A stretch of DNA of 64,000 nt from Tritonibacter scottomollicae (lineage in GTDB: Bacteria; Pseudomonadota; Alphaproteobacteria; Rhodobacterales; Rhodobacteraceae), in NCBI RefSeq assembly GCF_003003215.1, contig NZ_PVUF01000009.1:1-64000 (forward strand), read 5' to 3'. The position numbers and the translations under genes are program-made. Within the stretch, counting starts at the first letter, position 1, and each line of letters begins with the position of its first letter. Positions 42,173 to 48,254 of this stretch are shown here, piece by piece. Under the pieces are notes generated by a model. That model ran no database searches, was not told the origin of the DNA, and saw only the letters and a list, made by a program, of their open reading frames with translations.

Positions 42173-43054
42173 TCAGGCCCTGATCGCAACCCGTGCCGCA
42201 AGCCATGACACGAGGATCACCAGCAGATCCACCAGCAGCCAGGGGCGCAGGGCGGCAATGTCGTCCATGGCAAAGGGATGCAGGTAGAGCGCCAGCCCGT
42301 GAAGACTGGACGGAGAGGCAATTACCAGAAGCGACCAGACATTGTTGACGAAATGCACTGCGATCGCGGGGCCAAGGCTGCCGGACCGCGCCGTCAGATC
42401 CGCCATCAACACACCATAAAGGGTCGAGCCCGCCACGATCAGCCAGGCATTTTCTCCCGCCTCGGCCGGCATGTAGTGTCCCATGCCGAACAGTGCCGAA
42501 GGCAAGACCATCCACACCAGTGGGCTTTTGAACCGGGCCGCGAGACCTTGCTGAAGATATCCGCGAAACAGGATTTCCTCTGCGCTGACCTGAATCAGCA
42601 CCAGTGCGAGCGAGAGCGGAAGCCACATCAGCCAGCGCGCAAGGTCGAGATTTCGACCCAACGGCGCGCCCATACTGTAGGGGGGCAGGATGACCAGCAC
42701 GGCCACAAGCACCGCGAGGATGCGCAACACGCGCGTTCCCTGCCAGATGGCGCGGTGCTTCGGACCGATCACCGACCCGAGGCTGCGGTGATGCAGCCCC
42801 TGCACCACCAGCCCGACAGCGACAATCGCGTAGATGAAACTGCCGAGCAGCATCGCCATTCCGGCCGGGTTGGTGCCAGTGATGAAATCGGCTTGGTCGG
42901 TCGCCGCAAGCAAAACGGGCAGCAGGAACACGTCCGACAACAGGCTGAGGGCAAACCAGACGACGATTACCAACACCACACCGAGGGCAAAGCGCCAGAG
43001 TTCCGATTTGGCGCGCGCCTCCTGCAGCAGGGTCTCATGCGGGTGGTAGCTCAT
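42173..43054 (-). CDS. CPBP-family intramembrane metalloprotease
   Basis: A 293-residue membrane protein of the CAAX-protease/bacteriocin-processing (Abi) family. The glutamate pair with arginine is in VSAEEILFRGYLQQ, and the two histidine motifs in FGMGHYMPAEA and AIAVHFVNNVWSLL; these are the proposed zinc/catalytic residues. About eight hydrophobic segments are seen. The role in bacteria is generally unknown. It lies 51 bases downstream of the large ABC-like gene, on the same strand, and before accD. Confidence 0.88.
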   Translation of the reverse strand: MSYHPHETLLQEARAKSELWRFALGVVLVIVVWFALSLLSDVFLLPVLLAATDQADFITGTNPAGMAMLLGSFIYAIVAVGLVVQGLHHRSLGSVIGPKHRAIWQGTRVLRILAVLVAVLVILPPYSMGAPLGRNLDLARWLMWLPLSLALVLIQVSAEEILFRGYLQQGLAARFKSPLVWMVLPSALFGMGHYMPAEAGENAWLIVAGSTLYGVLMADLTARSGSLGPAIAVHFVNNVWSLLVIASPSSLHGLALYLHPFAMDDIAALRPWLLVDLLVILVSWLAARVAIRA

Positions 43055-43105: not shown

Positions 43106-46100
43106 TCAATGATCTGGTGCCACCGGGGCTGTGGCTGTCCCGTCATCCGCCGAGGTCGCCAGTGCGGAGGGGGCCGCGGGCATGCGACCTGAGCGCGCCT
43201 CCTGCAGGGCCTCTGCCGCGCTGGACAAGTGGCCCGACACGGTCTTCAACAATTGCAGGGCCACCGAAATGTCGCTTTCGATCACGGTACGATATTCCTG
43301 TGACCCGATGCGCAGGAAAACACAATCTTCTGCGGCCAAAAGATCCAGTTGCCTGGGGTCACCGGTGATCACCGCCAGGTCGCCGATCAACCGCCCCGGA
43401 CCGATCATGTCCAGATGGCTTCCATCCTCGGGAAAACGCAGCGATGCCTGACCGGACAGGCAGAGATAGACCGCATCGCCCTCTTCGCCCGCGCGAAAGA
43501 CTGCGGCCCCGGTTGGGACATTCACCCAGGATGCGGAGAAGGCCAGCAGCCGGCGATGCCGCGCGTCAAGCCGCGCAAACAGATCAATCTCGCTGATGAC
43601 CGCAAGTTTGCGGTCGAAATCACCGCCAGTGTCGTCCGTGTCGGTCCAGACCGGCGTTGCCGCCCCCTCCTGCCCGTCGACGCGCCCGTCCTTCAGCTCC
43701 AGATAGAGATCATAGCGCGATGGGTTTTCAAAATGATCCTCAAAGTGGATCATGGTGGTCTTGGGCAGCAGCGCCTGCAGTCGGGTCCGGGTTTTCAGTC
43801 GGCTGTCAGAGTCGTGGCTGGCCAGCACATGGTCCAAAATCAGGATGTCCGGGCGTTTGATCGCGGCGCGGGTAAAGGCGGCACGTTCACGGAACACAGG
43901 CTCCAGCAGCGCTCCGCCGAGGCCGGTCGGCAGGTCGTAGATCATCAATGCCAGCCGTGCTTTCAGGTCGTGGTCGGCCATTACATCCGCCACGGCATCC
44001 TCGACCGCCTGCGCCCGCGCCCCCGCATGCGCCGAGATACGGCCAAACAGAGCGTTTTCCAGCACCGTCAGCTTGCGGGCGTATTCTTCCGACCGCAGGC
44101 GCCGATAGACGCCGCTGCATTCACTCAACAGCAGATCGCTGCGGTTCTCGCGTATGCGCAGGATGTGGGTCTTGTACGCGCGCGGCAGGCCGGGGCCGAT
44201 CTGCTCTTCGGTGAGCAGGAATGGCAGGGTACACAACAGCGCGCGATCCTCGCGGTTGAGCTCCTGCGCCGCCAGATGGCGCTCCGCGGCCTTGGTAATG
44301 CGGGCATAAAGATCCTCGTCAAGGCCGAGGCGACGGAACAGCGGATGCGAGGTGTCGCCGCGACCGAAGGTGCGCTGCAAGGTGTCGAGAAGCGCCAGAC
44401 TGATGTCGCGGGTCTGCGCCTCCAGCCCCTCGGCGCGCAACACGCGCTGAAAGGGGCCATCCGGGTTTGTGAACAGTTTGGCCGGAACCGGCTGCACCGG
44501 AAAGGCGAACATCATGTTCTCCGCCAGCGACAGCGCCGGATTGTAGTGATCAGGCAGGAAGCGATAGACCACATCGCGCAGGCCTTTTTCCTGCAGGCGC
44601 GCCTCGATCCGGGGGCGCAGCTCGGTGATCTGCGCTTCGAGCGCGCGGTGGCGGTCCTGCAGCCGGGCGTGCAGGGTGCGATGGAAGAGCTGCCCGTCAA
44701 TGCCCATGGCCTCGACCAGCTGGAACCACCAGTCGCGCAGGCCATCCTCGGACCCCAACCCGGCCAGATCCGGGTTCACCCAATCGGCGTTCAGGGGATC
44801 CGGGTTGTTGCCCGCGCGCAGGGATTCCGCCCGCTGCAGCAATTGCAGTTCGGGGCCGGTTGCGCGTGGACGGCTGCGCAGCGGCATCAACACGTTGTCG
44901 CCAAGCGAGCCGTCAAACAGGTAGGGCGCGTTGAACGCATAGCCGATACGGCTGGCGATCACCCCCTGATGCAGCTCTGCCAGCGGACGGCCTGCCACGA
45001 TAACCTCGCCACGGCTTGGCAGCACCTCACGGGTCAACACCTGCGCCAGCGCCTGACGTTCGGCGGTCGAGCTGCTTTGGATTGCGACCTGCGCGCCCGC
45101 CGGAATGGTCAGGCTGAGGCCGTCGAGGATCGGCTTGCCCTCGGCGTCCTTTACGGTGACGTCGCGCAGCTCGATCTCTCCGCGCAGGTGCGGCACTTCC
45201 CGGGGCTCACCTTCAAGCAGCTTTTCATCAATCATGCCGGGAGGGGCGAATTTCTCCGCCATGATCTGCCAGCGCAGCGACATGTCCTGCACCTGATTGT
45301 AATAGGTCAGCAGCTCCTTCCAAGGCGCCGACAGATCCTTGTAAGCCGCCAATGCCGCCACCAGCGCGCCCACGGTGATCTCGCCCCGGATCGCCAGAAC
45401 GCCGCCGACCGAATAGAAAAAGAACGGCGTCAGGTGGCCGATCAGGTTGTTGAGGAACTTCATGAAGAACTTCTTCATGTAGATGCGGCGGCGGATCTCG
45501 AACAGGCGGCCCAGACGGTTGGAGACCTGCGCCAGCCGGTAGCGCCAGCCGCCATTGCTGCGCAGATCGCTGAGCCCTGCCGCCGTCTCGCCGATCTCGG
45601 CCGATAGCGCGCGCACCTCGGCGATACGGTCCTTGTTGAGAAGGTTGATCTGGCGTTGCAGCATTGGAATCAGCCAGGCCTGCAGTGGGATCAGCGCCAC
45701 CGAAGCCAGGCCGAACCAAACGCTCTGGACAAAGAGAAACGTCACGATGGTCAGCATCTGCCCGGCCTGGAACACCGGCTGCGCCACCGCATCCCCCATC
45801 AATCCGCCCATCGGCTCGGACTCGGAGGTGATCATCGACACCATCTCGCCCTGGCTGGTGGTATGAAAATGCCCCGATGGAAACCGCATCATGCGGGCAA
45901 TCATCTGATAGCGCAGCCGCCGCAGCAGGCGTTCGGAGAGGATCCCCTTCAGCGTGTTGAGCCGCATCTTCATCATGCCGCTGGCCAGCACTGCCCCGAG
46001 AAAGGCAAAGCAGAGCACCAGAAGGTAGTCCTCGGACGTCAGCCGCCAGCCCCAGAGATCCACCCATTCGCTGGGCGAACCGATAGCGTCGTTGACAATA

Positions 46101-46219
46101 CGTTTGGGCAGTTCCAGCGTGATATACAGGAACGGAAACGTGAGCAGGGTCAGAAGCAGAAGACCAAGCTGCTGGCGTTTCGAATGGCGCCAGATGAAGG
46201 AAAACAGGCTCGGCTCCAC
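43106..46219 (-). CDS. ABC-exporter-like protein with degenerate ATPase domain and C-terminal cyclic-nucleotide-binding domain
   Basis: A 1037-residue protein. Residues about 15-330 are an ABC exporter membrane domain (LFSFIWRHSKRQQ, ITLELPKRIVNDAIG). An ABC-type ATPase domain follows (about 346-850), but its P-loop reads VAIQSSSTAERQAL (378-391, no GxxGxGK lysine), the Q-loop glutamine is asparagine (IGYAFNAPYLFDGSL), the signature is TGLGGALL, and Walker B ends DILILDH (791-797), with histidine for the catalytic glutamate. Between them lies about 270 extra residues with further (A/L)EN-type motifs. Residues about 873-993 are a cyclic-nucleotide-binding domain (AVFRAGEEGDAVYLCLSGQA, GPGRLIGDLAVITG). 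The GTG at 46219 has AAAGGA 7 bases before it and fits the family's start; a TTG 27 codons upstream is less likely. ATP-driven transport is doubtful. Confidence 0.85.
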   Translation of the reverse strand: MEPSLFSFIWRHSKRQQLGLLLLTLLTFPFLYITLELPKRIVNDAIGSPSEWVDLWGWRLTSEDYLLVLCFAFLGAVLASGMMKMRLNTLKGILSERLLRRLRYQMIARMMRFPSGHFHTTSQGEMVSMITSESEPMGGLMGDAVAQPVFQAGQMLTIVTFLFVQSVWFGLASVALIPLQAWLIPMLQRQINLLNKDRIAEVRALSAEIGETAAGLSDLRSNGGWRYRLAQVSNRLGRLFEIRRRIYMKKFFMKFLNNLIGHLTPFFFYSVGGVLAIRGEITVGALVAALAAYKDLSAPWKELLTYYNQVQDMSLRWQIMAEKFAPPGMIDEKLLEGEPREVPHLRGEIELRDVTVKDAEGKPILDGLSLTIPAGAQVAIQSSSTAERQALAQVLTREVLPSRGEVIVAGRPLAELHQGVIASRIGYAFNAPYLFDGSLGDNVLMPLRSRPRATGPELQLLQRAESLRAGNNPDPLNADWVNPDLAGLGSEDGLRDWWFQLVEAMGIDGQLFHRTLHARLQDRHRALEAQITELRPRIEARLQEKGLRDVVYRFLPDHYNPALSLAENMMFAFPVQPVPAKLFTNPDGPFQRVLRAEGLEAQTRDISLALLDTLQRTFGRGDTSHPLFRRLGLDEDLYARITKAAERHLAAQELNREDRALLCTLPFLLTEEQIGPGLPRAYKTHILRIRENRSDLLLSECSGVYRRLRSEEYARKLTVLENALFGRISAHAGARAQAVEDAVADVMADHDLKARLALMIYDLPTGLGGALLEPVFRERAAFTRAAIKRPDILILDHVLASHDSDSRLKTRTRLQALLPKTTMIHFEDHFENPSRYDLYLELKDGRVDGQEGAATPVWTDTDDTGGDFDRKLAVISEIDLFARLDARHRRLLAFSASWVNVPTGAAVFRAGEEGDAVYLCLSGQASLRFPEDGSHLDMIGPGRLIGDLAVITGDPRQLDLLAAEDCVFLRIGSQEYRTVIESDISVALQLLKTVSGHLSSAAEALQEARSGRMPAAPSALATSADDGTATAPVAPDH

Positions 46220-46615
46220 GCCGTGTCCTTTCTGTCCGTCGGACCGCCGTGAAGCCCATGGCGGGTTGAAAACAAAAGCGATACCGTCTGTCGCAGACAA
46301 ACGCGCCCCGAAAATCTGTCAAAGAGCGCCTGATACGTCACCGCATCCCGCGAAGGCGCGTCAGGTAAGCGTGTTGTTGCCGCAATTCAAGTCACGCGTG
46401 TTCACTCTCCGTTAGCACTTGTTCCGATTCAAGGCTCCGTTTAAACAAACTGGGTATGAAAATAAGGGTGTGCCCCGGTGCCGGGGTCACGCAGAATCTG
46501 GGTGCAGGGGCAGACATTGACCGGATTACGGGCACGGACCACAGCCATTCATTGCGCCCTCGGTCGGCGCCGGACAGAGGTCTTTGCCGGCCTGTTAGAT
46601 CGTGCAGGCGGGCGA
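46220..46615. other. Intergenic region upstream of the ABC-like and lipoprotein genes
   Basis: 396 bases between the divergent ABC-like gene and the lipoprotein gene. A relatively AT-rich stretch at 46370-46470 probably holds promoters. A small hairpin CCCCGG-TG-CCGGGG is at 46473-46486. The lipoprotein frame is open from 46478 on, but its upstream part does not look coding. No named regulatory site is recognised. Confidence 0.45.
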
Positions 46616-47492: not shown

Positions 47493-48254
47493 ATGGGCAG
47501 ATTTCTTGAACAGGTGCTGAACGCCAGCACATTTCGCCGCTGGCAAGCCGCCGTGCGCAAAGCCCCGGATGCGGGTCTTGCCCGCCTGCGGCAACAACGC
47601 AATGAGGCCCGAAAGCTGCGCGCCCGCCTCGACCAGCTGATCCATATCGCCGATGGCCAGCTTGCGTTGCCGCGGATCGGATCGTCCTATTTCGCCCGTC
47701 CGCACGGTACCGACTGGTCCTGGCGCCCGGAGCTTTGGCGCGGCCCGTTGCCGCTTCCGGGCGTGTCCTCGGCGCCCAGCAAGACGCCGCTCGGCCACGA
47801 GGTGAAGCTGTTCCATGATTGCACCATTTCAGAACTGACCCTGCGCCAGCTGCGCAACACCCGCGAAGAAGATCTGGCCCCGTTTGGCCTGCGGATGGAT
47901 GTGTTCAAATTCGATGGCTCGTTTCTGTCATTGGTCATCGATCTGCCCGCGGAGGCGACCATCGGCCTGACCCGCCAGCATCTGGTGCGCTTGGACTGCA
48001 TTGTCGAGAGCGAACAGCCTGTCGAGATTTTTGCCCGCCTGAACATCAAGCACGGTCCCAATACCGAACAGCTGGTGCGGGAGCTTCCGCATGGCGAGAC
48101 GGCGGTCTCGGTGGAATATGATCTGGCCTATTCGCGGTTGAACGAAAAGCGGATCGAGAAAGCCTGGGTGGATCTGATCTTTGAAGCGCCCGACATGAAC
48201 CAGGTGGTGCTGCGCGACGTGACTTTTGCCCGGTTCCGCCGGGCCAACCTCTGA
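47493..48254 (+). CDS. Conserved hypothetical protein, DUF6478-like
   Basis: A 253-residue protein that resembles a Rhodobacteraceae family I believe is DUF6478. It has a basic helical N-terminus (QVLNASTFRRWQAAVRKAPD, then ARLRQQRNEARKLRARLDQL), and a beta-rich C-terminal half (FKFDGSFLSLVIDLPAEA, then YDLAYSRLNEKRIEKAWVDL) that might be a carbohydrate-binding-like sandwich. No signal peptide is present. GGGGGAAGA precedes the ATG. It is 22 bases upstream of a second small gene and probably cotranscribed. Confidence 0.8.
   Translation: MGRFLEQVLNASTFRRWQAAVRKAPDAGLARLRQQRNEARKLRARLDQLIHIADGQLALPRIGSSYFARPHGTDWSWRPELWRGPLPLPGVSSAPSKTPLGHEVKLFHDCTISELTLRQLRNTREEDLAPFGLRMDVFKFDGSFLSLVIDLPAEATIGLTRQHLVRLDCIVESEQPVEIFARLNIKHGPNTEQLVRELPHGETAVSVEYDLAYSRLNEKRIEKAWVDLIFEAPDMNQVVLRDVTFARFRRANL

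Follow-up and report, generated by a model that had tools for sequence, protein, structure and literature searches.

A maintained pseudo-ABC exporter with a degenerate ATPase domain, a repeat-bearing insertion and a fused cyclic-nucleotide-binding domain in Tritonibacter scottomollicae

What is left for an exporter to do once its ATPase has decayed? The question is raised by a 1037-residue protein encoded on the minus strand (43106-46219) of a 64,000-nucleotide stretch of Tritonibacter scottomollicae DNA (positions 1 to 64,000 of contig NZ_PVUF01000009.1, hereafter the window), which an initial annotation, made from the letters alone, had described as an ATP-binding cassette (ABC) exporter-like protein with a dead ATPase domain. 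The best explanation of its sequence is that of a pseudo-ABC exporter of the half-transporter type, in which the transmembrane domain (TMD) and the fold of the nucleotide-binding domain (NBD) would be kept, the NBD would have given up ATP hydrolysis, and a cyclic-nucleotide (cNMP)-binding partner is fused to the chain. We put at roughly one in two the reading that the TMD acts independently of ATP, under the control of a ligand, in a glycan pathway. The basis is comparison throughout: the predicted fold, the loss of catalytic residues, purifying selection, a repeat-containing insertion, pairing with a cNMP domain, and a glycan-type gene cluster that co-occurs and is linked with the family.

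The ATPase site and its insertion

Three Pfam families match the protein at E<=1: ABC_membrane (PF00664, residues 64-290, E 1.7e-18, 67.7 bits against a cut-off of 28), which makes the TMD exporter-type; cNMP_binding (PF00027, 51.5 bits against 27.5), confirming the domain recognised in the initial annotation; and ABC_tran (residues 365-442), which at 18.1 bits lies under its cut-off of 25. The predicted model nonetheless matches the ABC exporter fold over residues 2-850, with an ABC-type NBD, in line with the fold cues noted earlier. Among the matches listed for the protein (best 25 of 61), and among those listed for four of its relatives, every NCBIfam model stays below its cut-off; the MsbA equivalog scores 133.9 bits against a cut-off of 602, short of what an MsbA lipid A flippase would give.

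When the NBD is aligned with five canonical exporters encoded in the same genome, one of the eight canonical catalytic residues is left, the Walker B Asp (Asp796), and the motif set of an active ABC ATPase is absent. In the P-loop (VAIQSSSTAERQAL, starting at residue 378, with the core SSSTAERQ) the three glycines, the Lys and the Ser/Thr are replaced by S, T, E, R and Q; the Q-loop Gln has become Asn430; and in the Walker B stretch LILDH at residue 793 the Glu has become His797. These three losses had been read correctly from the sequence, and to them we add the H-loop His, here Asp828, which the earlier list did not include. The signature is also lost, with LEPVF (residues 772-776) at the position of LSGGQ, but the letters originally quoted for it, TGLGGALL (765-772), align with VGERGVML, start seven residues ahead of the signature and share only their final Leu with it. 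The distance from the P-loop Lys position to the Walker B Asp is 408 residues, compared to 122-127 in the five canonical exporters, bearing out the enlargement noticed at first sight.

Most of the additional length is an insertion of about 286 residues (443-728), and the three similar motifs around and within it start exactly where they had been placed, at residues 438, 564 and 718. We compared disjoint family profiles of residues 400-509, 510-662 and 663-800 with hhalign. The second and third segments match each other with a probability of 98.8 (score 98.2, E 1.3e-16; maximum of 60 column shuffles 20.8), and copies 2 and 3 are thus clear repeats. The first segment matches the third with a probability of 73 (score 32.8, E 3e-5; maximum of 60 shuffles 23.5) and the second with a probability of 48 (score 28.9, E 1.8e-4; the shuffle controls cover the other two pairs only), while control pairs of unrelated segments gave E-values of 0.08 or worse. 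At the profile level, therefore, copies 2 and 3 resemble each other more closely than either resembles the canonical copy 1. Copies 2 and 3 share about 100 columns, ending in the helices after a V-E-x-F-D-x-x-x-Y-N ... E-N-x-L-F-G stretch, and what copy 1 has in common with them is chiefly the Q-loop and the DN/EN-LLFG part. The original idea of a repeated helical subdomain thus holds as far as the repetition goes; the repeated unit comprises the strand and the helix that surround the Q-loop, plus the helices flanking them. Modelled alone, the insertion has a confident predicted fold, for which comparison to the PDB gave no clear match, and Pfam has no match for this stretch of the protein.

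Residue loss and selection across the family

Relatives of the protein occur in 96 of 289 alphaproteobacterial genomes (match at E<=1e-60). Residues were counted in an L-INS-i alignment of 125 members, the window protein plus the 124 distinct proteins left from 184 loci once duplicates and hits below 250 bits had been taken out. For closer comparisons we used loci from a named list (the best 80 of 579): a clade set of 64, consisting of the window protein and 63 close relatives of roseobacter type, with 17 omitted by eye as similar to others; and an alignment of the window protein and 61 of the 80, with 19, including a truncated one (L104), omitted by eye on the same ground. Two further alignments comprise the window protein and 18 members.

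The long spacing between P-loop Lys and Walker B Asp is present in 125/125, at 361-491 residues, or at least 385 once a single 436-residue fragment (L261), the source of the minimum of 361, is excluded. Over the same set the canonical residues are retained as follows: Lys 63, Ser/Thr 12, Q-loop Gln 21, signature Ser 58, first signature Gly 15, Walker B Asp 27, Glu 55 and His 33. No member keeps all eight, 24 keep none, and an LSGGQ motif is found in none of the 125. Within the clade of 64, the P-loop Lys, the Q-loop Gln, the Walker B Glu and the H-loop His are each kept in no member, so that the dead-looking site first described in one protein extends to its whole clade, although across the 125 members the loss is incomplete. 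P-loop Lys, Ser/Thr and Walker B Glu, a combination which in orthologues would have told against the initial annotation, occur together only in distant relatives, 8 of the 125, all of them without the Q-loop Gln. Because these eight exist, yet lack that Gln, and because LSGGQ is absent throughout, the decay seems to have proceeded by degrees from an active ancestor and, by the alignment, is complete in the window's clade.

The same eight relatives, together with a D-loop Asp retained in 107/125, are what speaks for a weakly active or differently powered exporter, which would bind nucleotide in a non-canonical way and still cycle. We consider this improbable for the window protein, whose clade has lost the P-loop glycines and Lys together with the Q-loop, the signature, the Glu and the His. 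Moreover, the magnesium-binding Ser/Thr position of the P-loop is Asp or Glu in 87/125, and the Walker B Asp is lost in 78 of these 87 compared to 20 of the 38 others (Fisher 1e-5, kinship ignored). The commonest combination among the acidic members is an acid with Asn (51/87), as though a different hydrogen-bonded pair had taken the place of the original one, which suggests that the two magnesium-site residues were replaced jointly.

The pattern of conservation is also inverted. Mean pairwise identity in the 125 members is 0.495 for the TMD, 0.36 for the NBD core and 0.384 for the insertion, and in the 17 members with a fused cNMP domain it is 0.586, 0.334 and 0.295; in 30 Atm1-type exporters (the best 30 matches, hence a fairly close set) it is 0.601 for the TMD and 0.708 for the NBD. 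The TMD is thus better conserved than the NBD, the opposite of Atm1-type exporters. Ratios of nonsynonymous to synonymous substitution rates (dN/dS) between the window gene and four relatives of 83-87% identity are 0.06-0.11 for the TMD, 0.12-0.22 for the N-terminal part of the NBD, 0.14-0.17 for the insertion, 0.04-0.08 for the C-terminal part of the NBD and 0.09-0.18 for the cNMP part; against three relatives at a greater distance the range is 0.12-0.42, at dS values of 1.1-2.8 that are near saturation. The protein is under purifying selection and is maintained. A decaying paralogue without function, for which one could cite the faster divergence of the insertion and cNMP part relative to the TMD and the truncation of L104, is highly improbable, since dN/dS is 0.04-0.22 across all regions and 79 of the 80 fetched relatives have an open frame some 1000 residues long. 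The frame of L104 (L104:8001-9614) ends at 538 residues, within the insertion, and is possibly a pseudogene or an assembly error.

One-sided degenerate sites occur in heterodimeric exporter pairs, in which the other site still hydrolyses ATP, and the nearest solved chain by sequence is indeed TM_0288 of the TM287/288 heterodimer (E 8.3e-25). The window protein might then be the regulatory half of an exporter of this kind (TM287/288, TAP and BmrCD are examples), and an intact half-transporter encoded elsewhere would provide the single functional ATP site. A motif scan of 40 loci, reaching up to about 8 kb on each side, for open reading frames of 480-780 residues with GxxGxGK[ST] and an SGG signature, strict motifs with which cut frames are missed, gave just two candidates: an intact exporter-like frame near one relative (L180) and an importer-type ATPase (L160). 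The degenerate half of known heterodimers keeps its P-loop Lys, which is lost in 64/64 of the window's clade. On balance a heterodimer seems doubtful, L180 notwithstanding.

A profile of the insertion is found in 31 of 398 Pseudomonadota genomes, all of the window's class. The insertion of one relative (L017) matches 263 plasmid records, chiefly from Rhizobium (144) and Sinorhizobium (80), and no phage record. Fused genes outside the class are also seen among the best 80 of 579 loci, on four Granulosicoccus contigs and in one other gammaproteobacterial metagenome-assembled genome (L085, L087, L089, L109, L111); their products are 48-50% identical to the window protein and reflect either transfer or a binning error. 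Another genome carries a third, more distant pseudo-ABC gene (L197, G154:C1:3341655), placed in the tree as sister of the other seven copies of roseobacter type.

The cyclic-nucleotide domain and the glycan-type gene cluster

The cNMP domain is not a peculiarity of the window protein. A separate cNMP protein lies within 1.5 kb downstream of the pseudo-ABC gene in 97/125 members, and the two are fused in 17/125. The 17 fused proteins form a single clade (support 0.999), which traces the window protein back to one fusion, and from this it can be argued that the ABC and cNMP parts act together; an old and conserved link between the two is supported by these sequences. The phosphate-binding cassette, counted over 114 members, has Gly in 114/114, Glu in 104/114, Arg in 113/114 and Thr after the Arg in 91/114. 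A Thr at that place favours cGMP in eukaryotic kinases. Seven matches to class III cyclases are present in the window's genome.

The second association is with a conserved alphaproteobacterial gene cluster (L148, L156 from Rhizobium leguminosarum, and L278, G000:C1:306001-326000) of a peptide-type ABC importer and glycosyltransferases, joined in different genomes by a histidine phosphatase, a polysaccharide deacetylase, a methyltransferase or a class III cyclase. For instance, the order in R. leguminosarum is a DppD/DppF-type double ATPase, an SBP_bac_5 protein, two permeases (nearest Opp4B and Opp4C, both under cut-off), three glycosyltransferases, the pseudo-ABC gene and the cNMP protein. 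A nucleotide-sugar dehydrogenase, a methyltransferase and a cyclase lie in the vicinity, the cyclase gene adjoining the transporter genes, and no deacetylase or histidine phosphatase occurs within the stretch shown. A similar set is seen in Azospirillum (importer, glycosyltransferases, histidine phosphatase, deacetylase) and in Shinella (importer parts, glycosyltransferases, deacetylase). Several cluster genes are present in 24 of 40 loci, counted by eye in loci of 15-20 kb that were selected from the hits rather than at random.

One cluster glycosyltransferase (L148:3822-5027) is found in 93 of the 289 alphaproteobacterial genomes (E<=1e-50), in 90 of the 96 with a pseudo-ABC gene compared to 3 of the 193 without (both 90, pseudo-ABC alone 6, glycosyltransferase alone 3, neither 190; Fisher 3e-63). 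The two genes lie within 5 kb in 63 of the 90 genomes and within 45 kb in 69, farther apart on one contig in 3 and on different contigs in 18. Because of this co-occurrence and linkage, the protein looks more like a functional component of an envelope pathway than like a sensor acting on its own, and to that extent the initial annotation is modified. The comparison bears out the catalytic loss, the maintained TMD, the repeats of the insertion and the old cNMP link; a sensor in place of a pump, as first suggested, is a possible reading.

How might such a protein work? The conserved TMD would do the work, and would do so without ATP; most likely it would regulate the glycan pathway under the control of a ligand or serve that pathway as a passive flippase or conduit. 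The NBD pair and the insertion could have been converted into a docking and gating ring, altered when a cNMP-type ligand binds the cNMP part, which in most relatives is a protein of its own encoded next door and in the window protein is fused. In its most specific form, which we offer tentatively, this would describe a large, mainly alphaproteobacterial, unnamed family in which an exporter has turned into an ATP-independent, cNMP-controlled membrane device. Its NBD, lengthened by two additional copies of the post-Q-loop segment, would have ceased to consume ATP and would serve as the gate by which a cNMP signal governs the passage or synthesis of an envelope glycan, the product of the conserved cluster.

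A non-transporting receptor or scaffold, whose TMD anchors and signals while cNMP binding is relayed to the glycosyltransferases or to an adjoining CPBP protease, would fit the lost ATPase residues, the sensor-type domain and the CPBP neighbour in the window's subclade. The window gene adjoins the CPBP protease gene, with accD and a folC-like gene alongside, an arrangement that recurs in two Ruegeria plasmids and, for loci of roseobacter type, in only 5 of 13. This limited recurrence, and the fact that the TMD is the best conserved part and keeps an exporter architecture seemingly beyond the needs of an anchor, make a receptor or scaffold rather unlikely.

Several observations weigh against ATP-independent, ligand-controlled action in a glycan pathway. 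The best-preserved member (L034) keeps 7/8 catalytic residues and eight relatives have Lys, Ser/Thr and Glu, so that ATP may still be bound or split by some members. Within the window's own taxonomic family the insertion profile is found in 4 genomes and missing from 20 among those listed. No cNMP partner was found nearby in 11/125 members (for one of these, L252, less than 1.5 kb of downstream sequence is available), and a class III cyclase relative is present in only 6 of the 40 chosen loci. The Fisher test for co-occurrence treats genomes as independent and ignores phylogeny, and in 27 of the 90 genomes the two genes are not within 5 kb, 18 of these having them on different contigs. The window gene, too, is unlinked to the cluster. 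In its genome the cluster set is on another contig, where the glycosyltransferase lies about 19 kb from a second full-length paralogue (L002/L178, G000:C1:334595-337657) that is 49% identical to the window protein; the window copy is the second, unlinked paralogue of this cluster-side copy, and its role may differ from that of the family. Its cassette (GDLAVITGDPRQLDL) has also diverged from the family's commonest letters (GEIAILCDVPRTATV): with respect to the familiar motif G-E-x-A ... P-R-[ATS]-A-T, the Gly and Arg are kept, the Glu is Asp and the small residues after the Arg are lost, which may likewise mean a different role.

Much has been learnt about regulation from pseudokinases and other dead relatives of enzymes. 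An exporter that is widespread, and whose TMD is better kept than its degenerate ATPase, would make exporter action without ATP testable; it may represent an output of cyclic nucleotides other than a transcription factor, and it offers a way into the gene cluster with which it co-occurs. A literature search, with most subscription journals outside its scope, found no description of the pseudo-ABC family or of the cluster.

Gene layout and comparison with known systems

The features of the gene are collected in Table 1. A divergent DUF6478 gene (47493-48254, plus strand, Pfam E 7.8e-125) lies near it and is also a neighbour in the two Ruegeria plasmids.

Table 1. Positions in the window of the pseudo-ABC gene, its parts and the next downstream gene.
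Feature	Position	Strand	Remarks
Whole gene	43106..46219	-	1037 aa; GTG start at 46219, alternative start TTG at 46300
ABC-exporter TMD	45188..46219	-	residues ~1-344; Pfam ABC_membrane spans 64-290
NBD, N-terminal part	44894..45187	-	residues 345-442; Pfam ABC_tran 365-442 and fold match
Degenerate Walker A VAIQSSSTAERQAL	45047..45088	-	residues 378-391
Degenerate Q-loop and repeat motif 1, AFNAPYLFDGSLGDNVLMPL	44879..44938	-	residues 428-447
Insertion	44036..44893	-	residues 443-728; contains the post-Q-loop motif and its surroundings in two extra copies
Repeat motif 2, SLAENMMFAF	44501..44530	-	residues 564-573
Repeat motif 3, TVLENALFGR	44039..44068	-	residues 718-727
NBD, C-terminal part	43670..44035	-	residues 729-850
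Signature position, LEPVF replacing LSGGQ	43892..43906	-	residues 772-776
Degenerate Walker B, LILDH	43829..43843	-	residues 793-797
Cyclic-nucleotide-binding domain	43274..43525	-	residues 899-982; Pfam PF00027 E 1e-13
Phosphate-binding-cassette position GRLIGDLAVITGDPR	43352..43396	-	residues 942-956; Gly946 and Arg956 invariant in 64/64 (window protein and 63 close relatives)
CPBP/Rce1-like membrane protease, next downstream gene	42173..43054	-	

With MsbA and other ABCB-type (type IV) exporters the window protein shares the exporter fold, PCAT1 and TM287/288 being among the nearest solved structures, and it differs from them in its lost catalytic residues, its 286-residue insertion and its cNMP domain. 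In common with the heterodimeric exporters (TM287/288, TAP, BmrCD) it has a degenerate NBD retained in the fold, though here both sites would be degenerate if the protein forms a homodimer. The separate cNMP partner of R. leguminosarum matches TIGR03896, a model of bacteriocin-type transport-associated cNMP proteins, at 5.3e-11, but with 42.5 bits this is under the cut-off of 161 and the two may share only the generic domain.

Among described exporters, the nearest parallel that we came across is HetC of Nostoc, an exporter-type ABC protein reported to depend on its attached cNMP-type domain (PMC10986499). The likeness is the joining of an exporter-type ABC part to such a domain; the differences are that HetC has a C39 peptidase, an essential ATPase residue and its cNMP domain at the N-terminus. 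No C39 peptidase is found N-terminal to the TMD of the window protein by Pfam at E<=1, so that it lacks the layout of a HetC-like peptidase-containing ABC transporter. In vitro the cNMP-type domain of HetC bound ppGpp, and cAMP gave no significant protection (PMC10986499); given this ligand, the gating by cAMP or cGMP first suggested for the window protein is not to be assumed.

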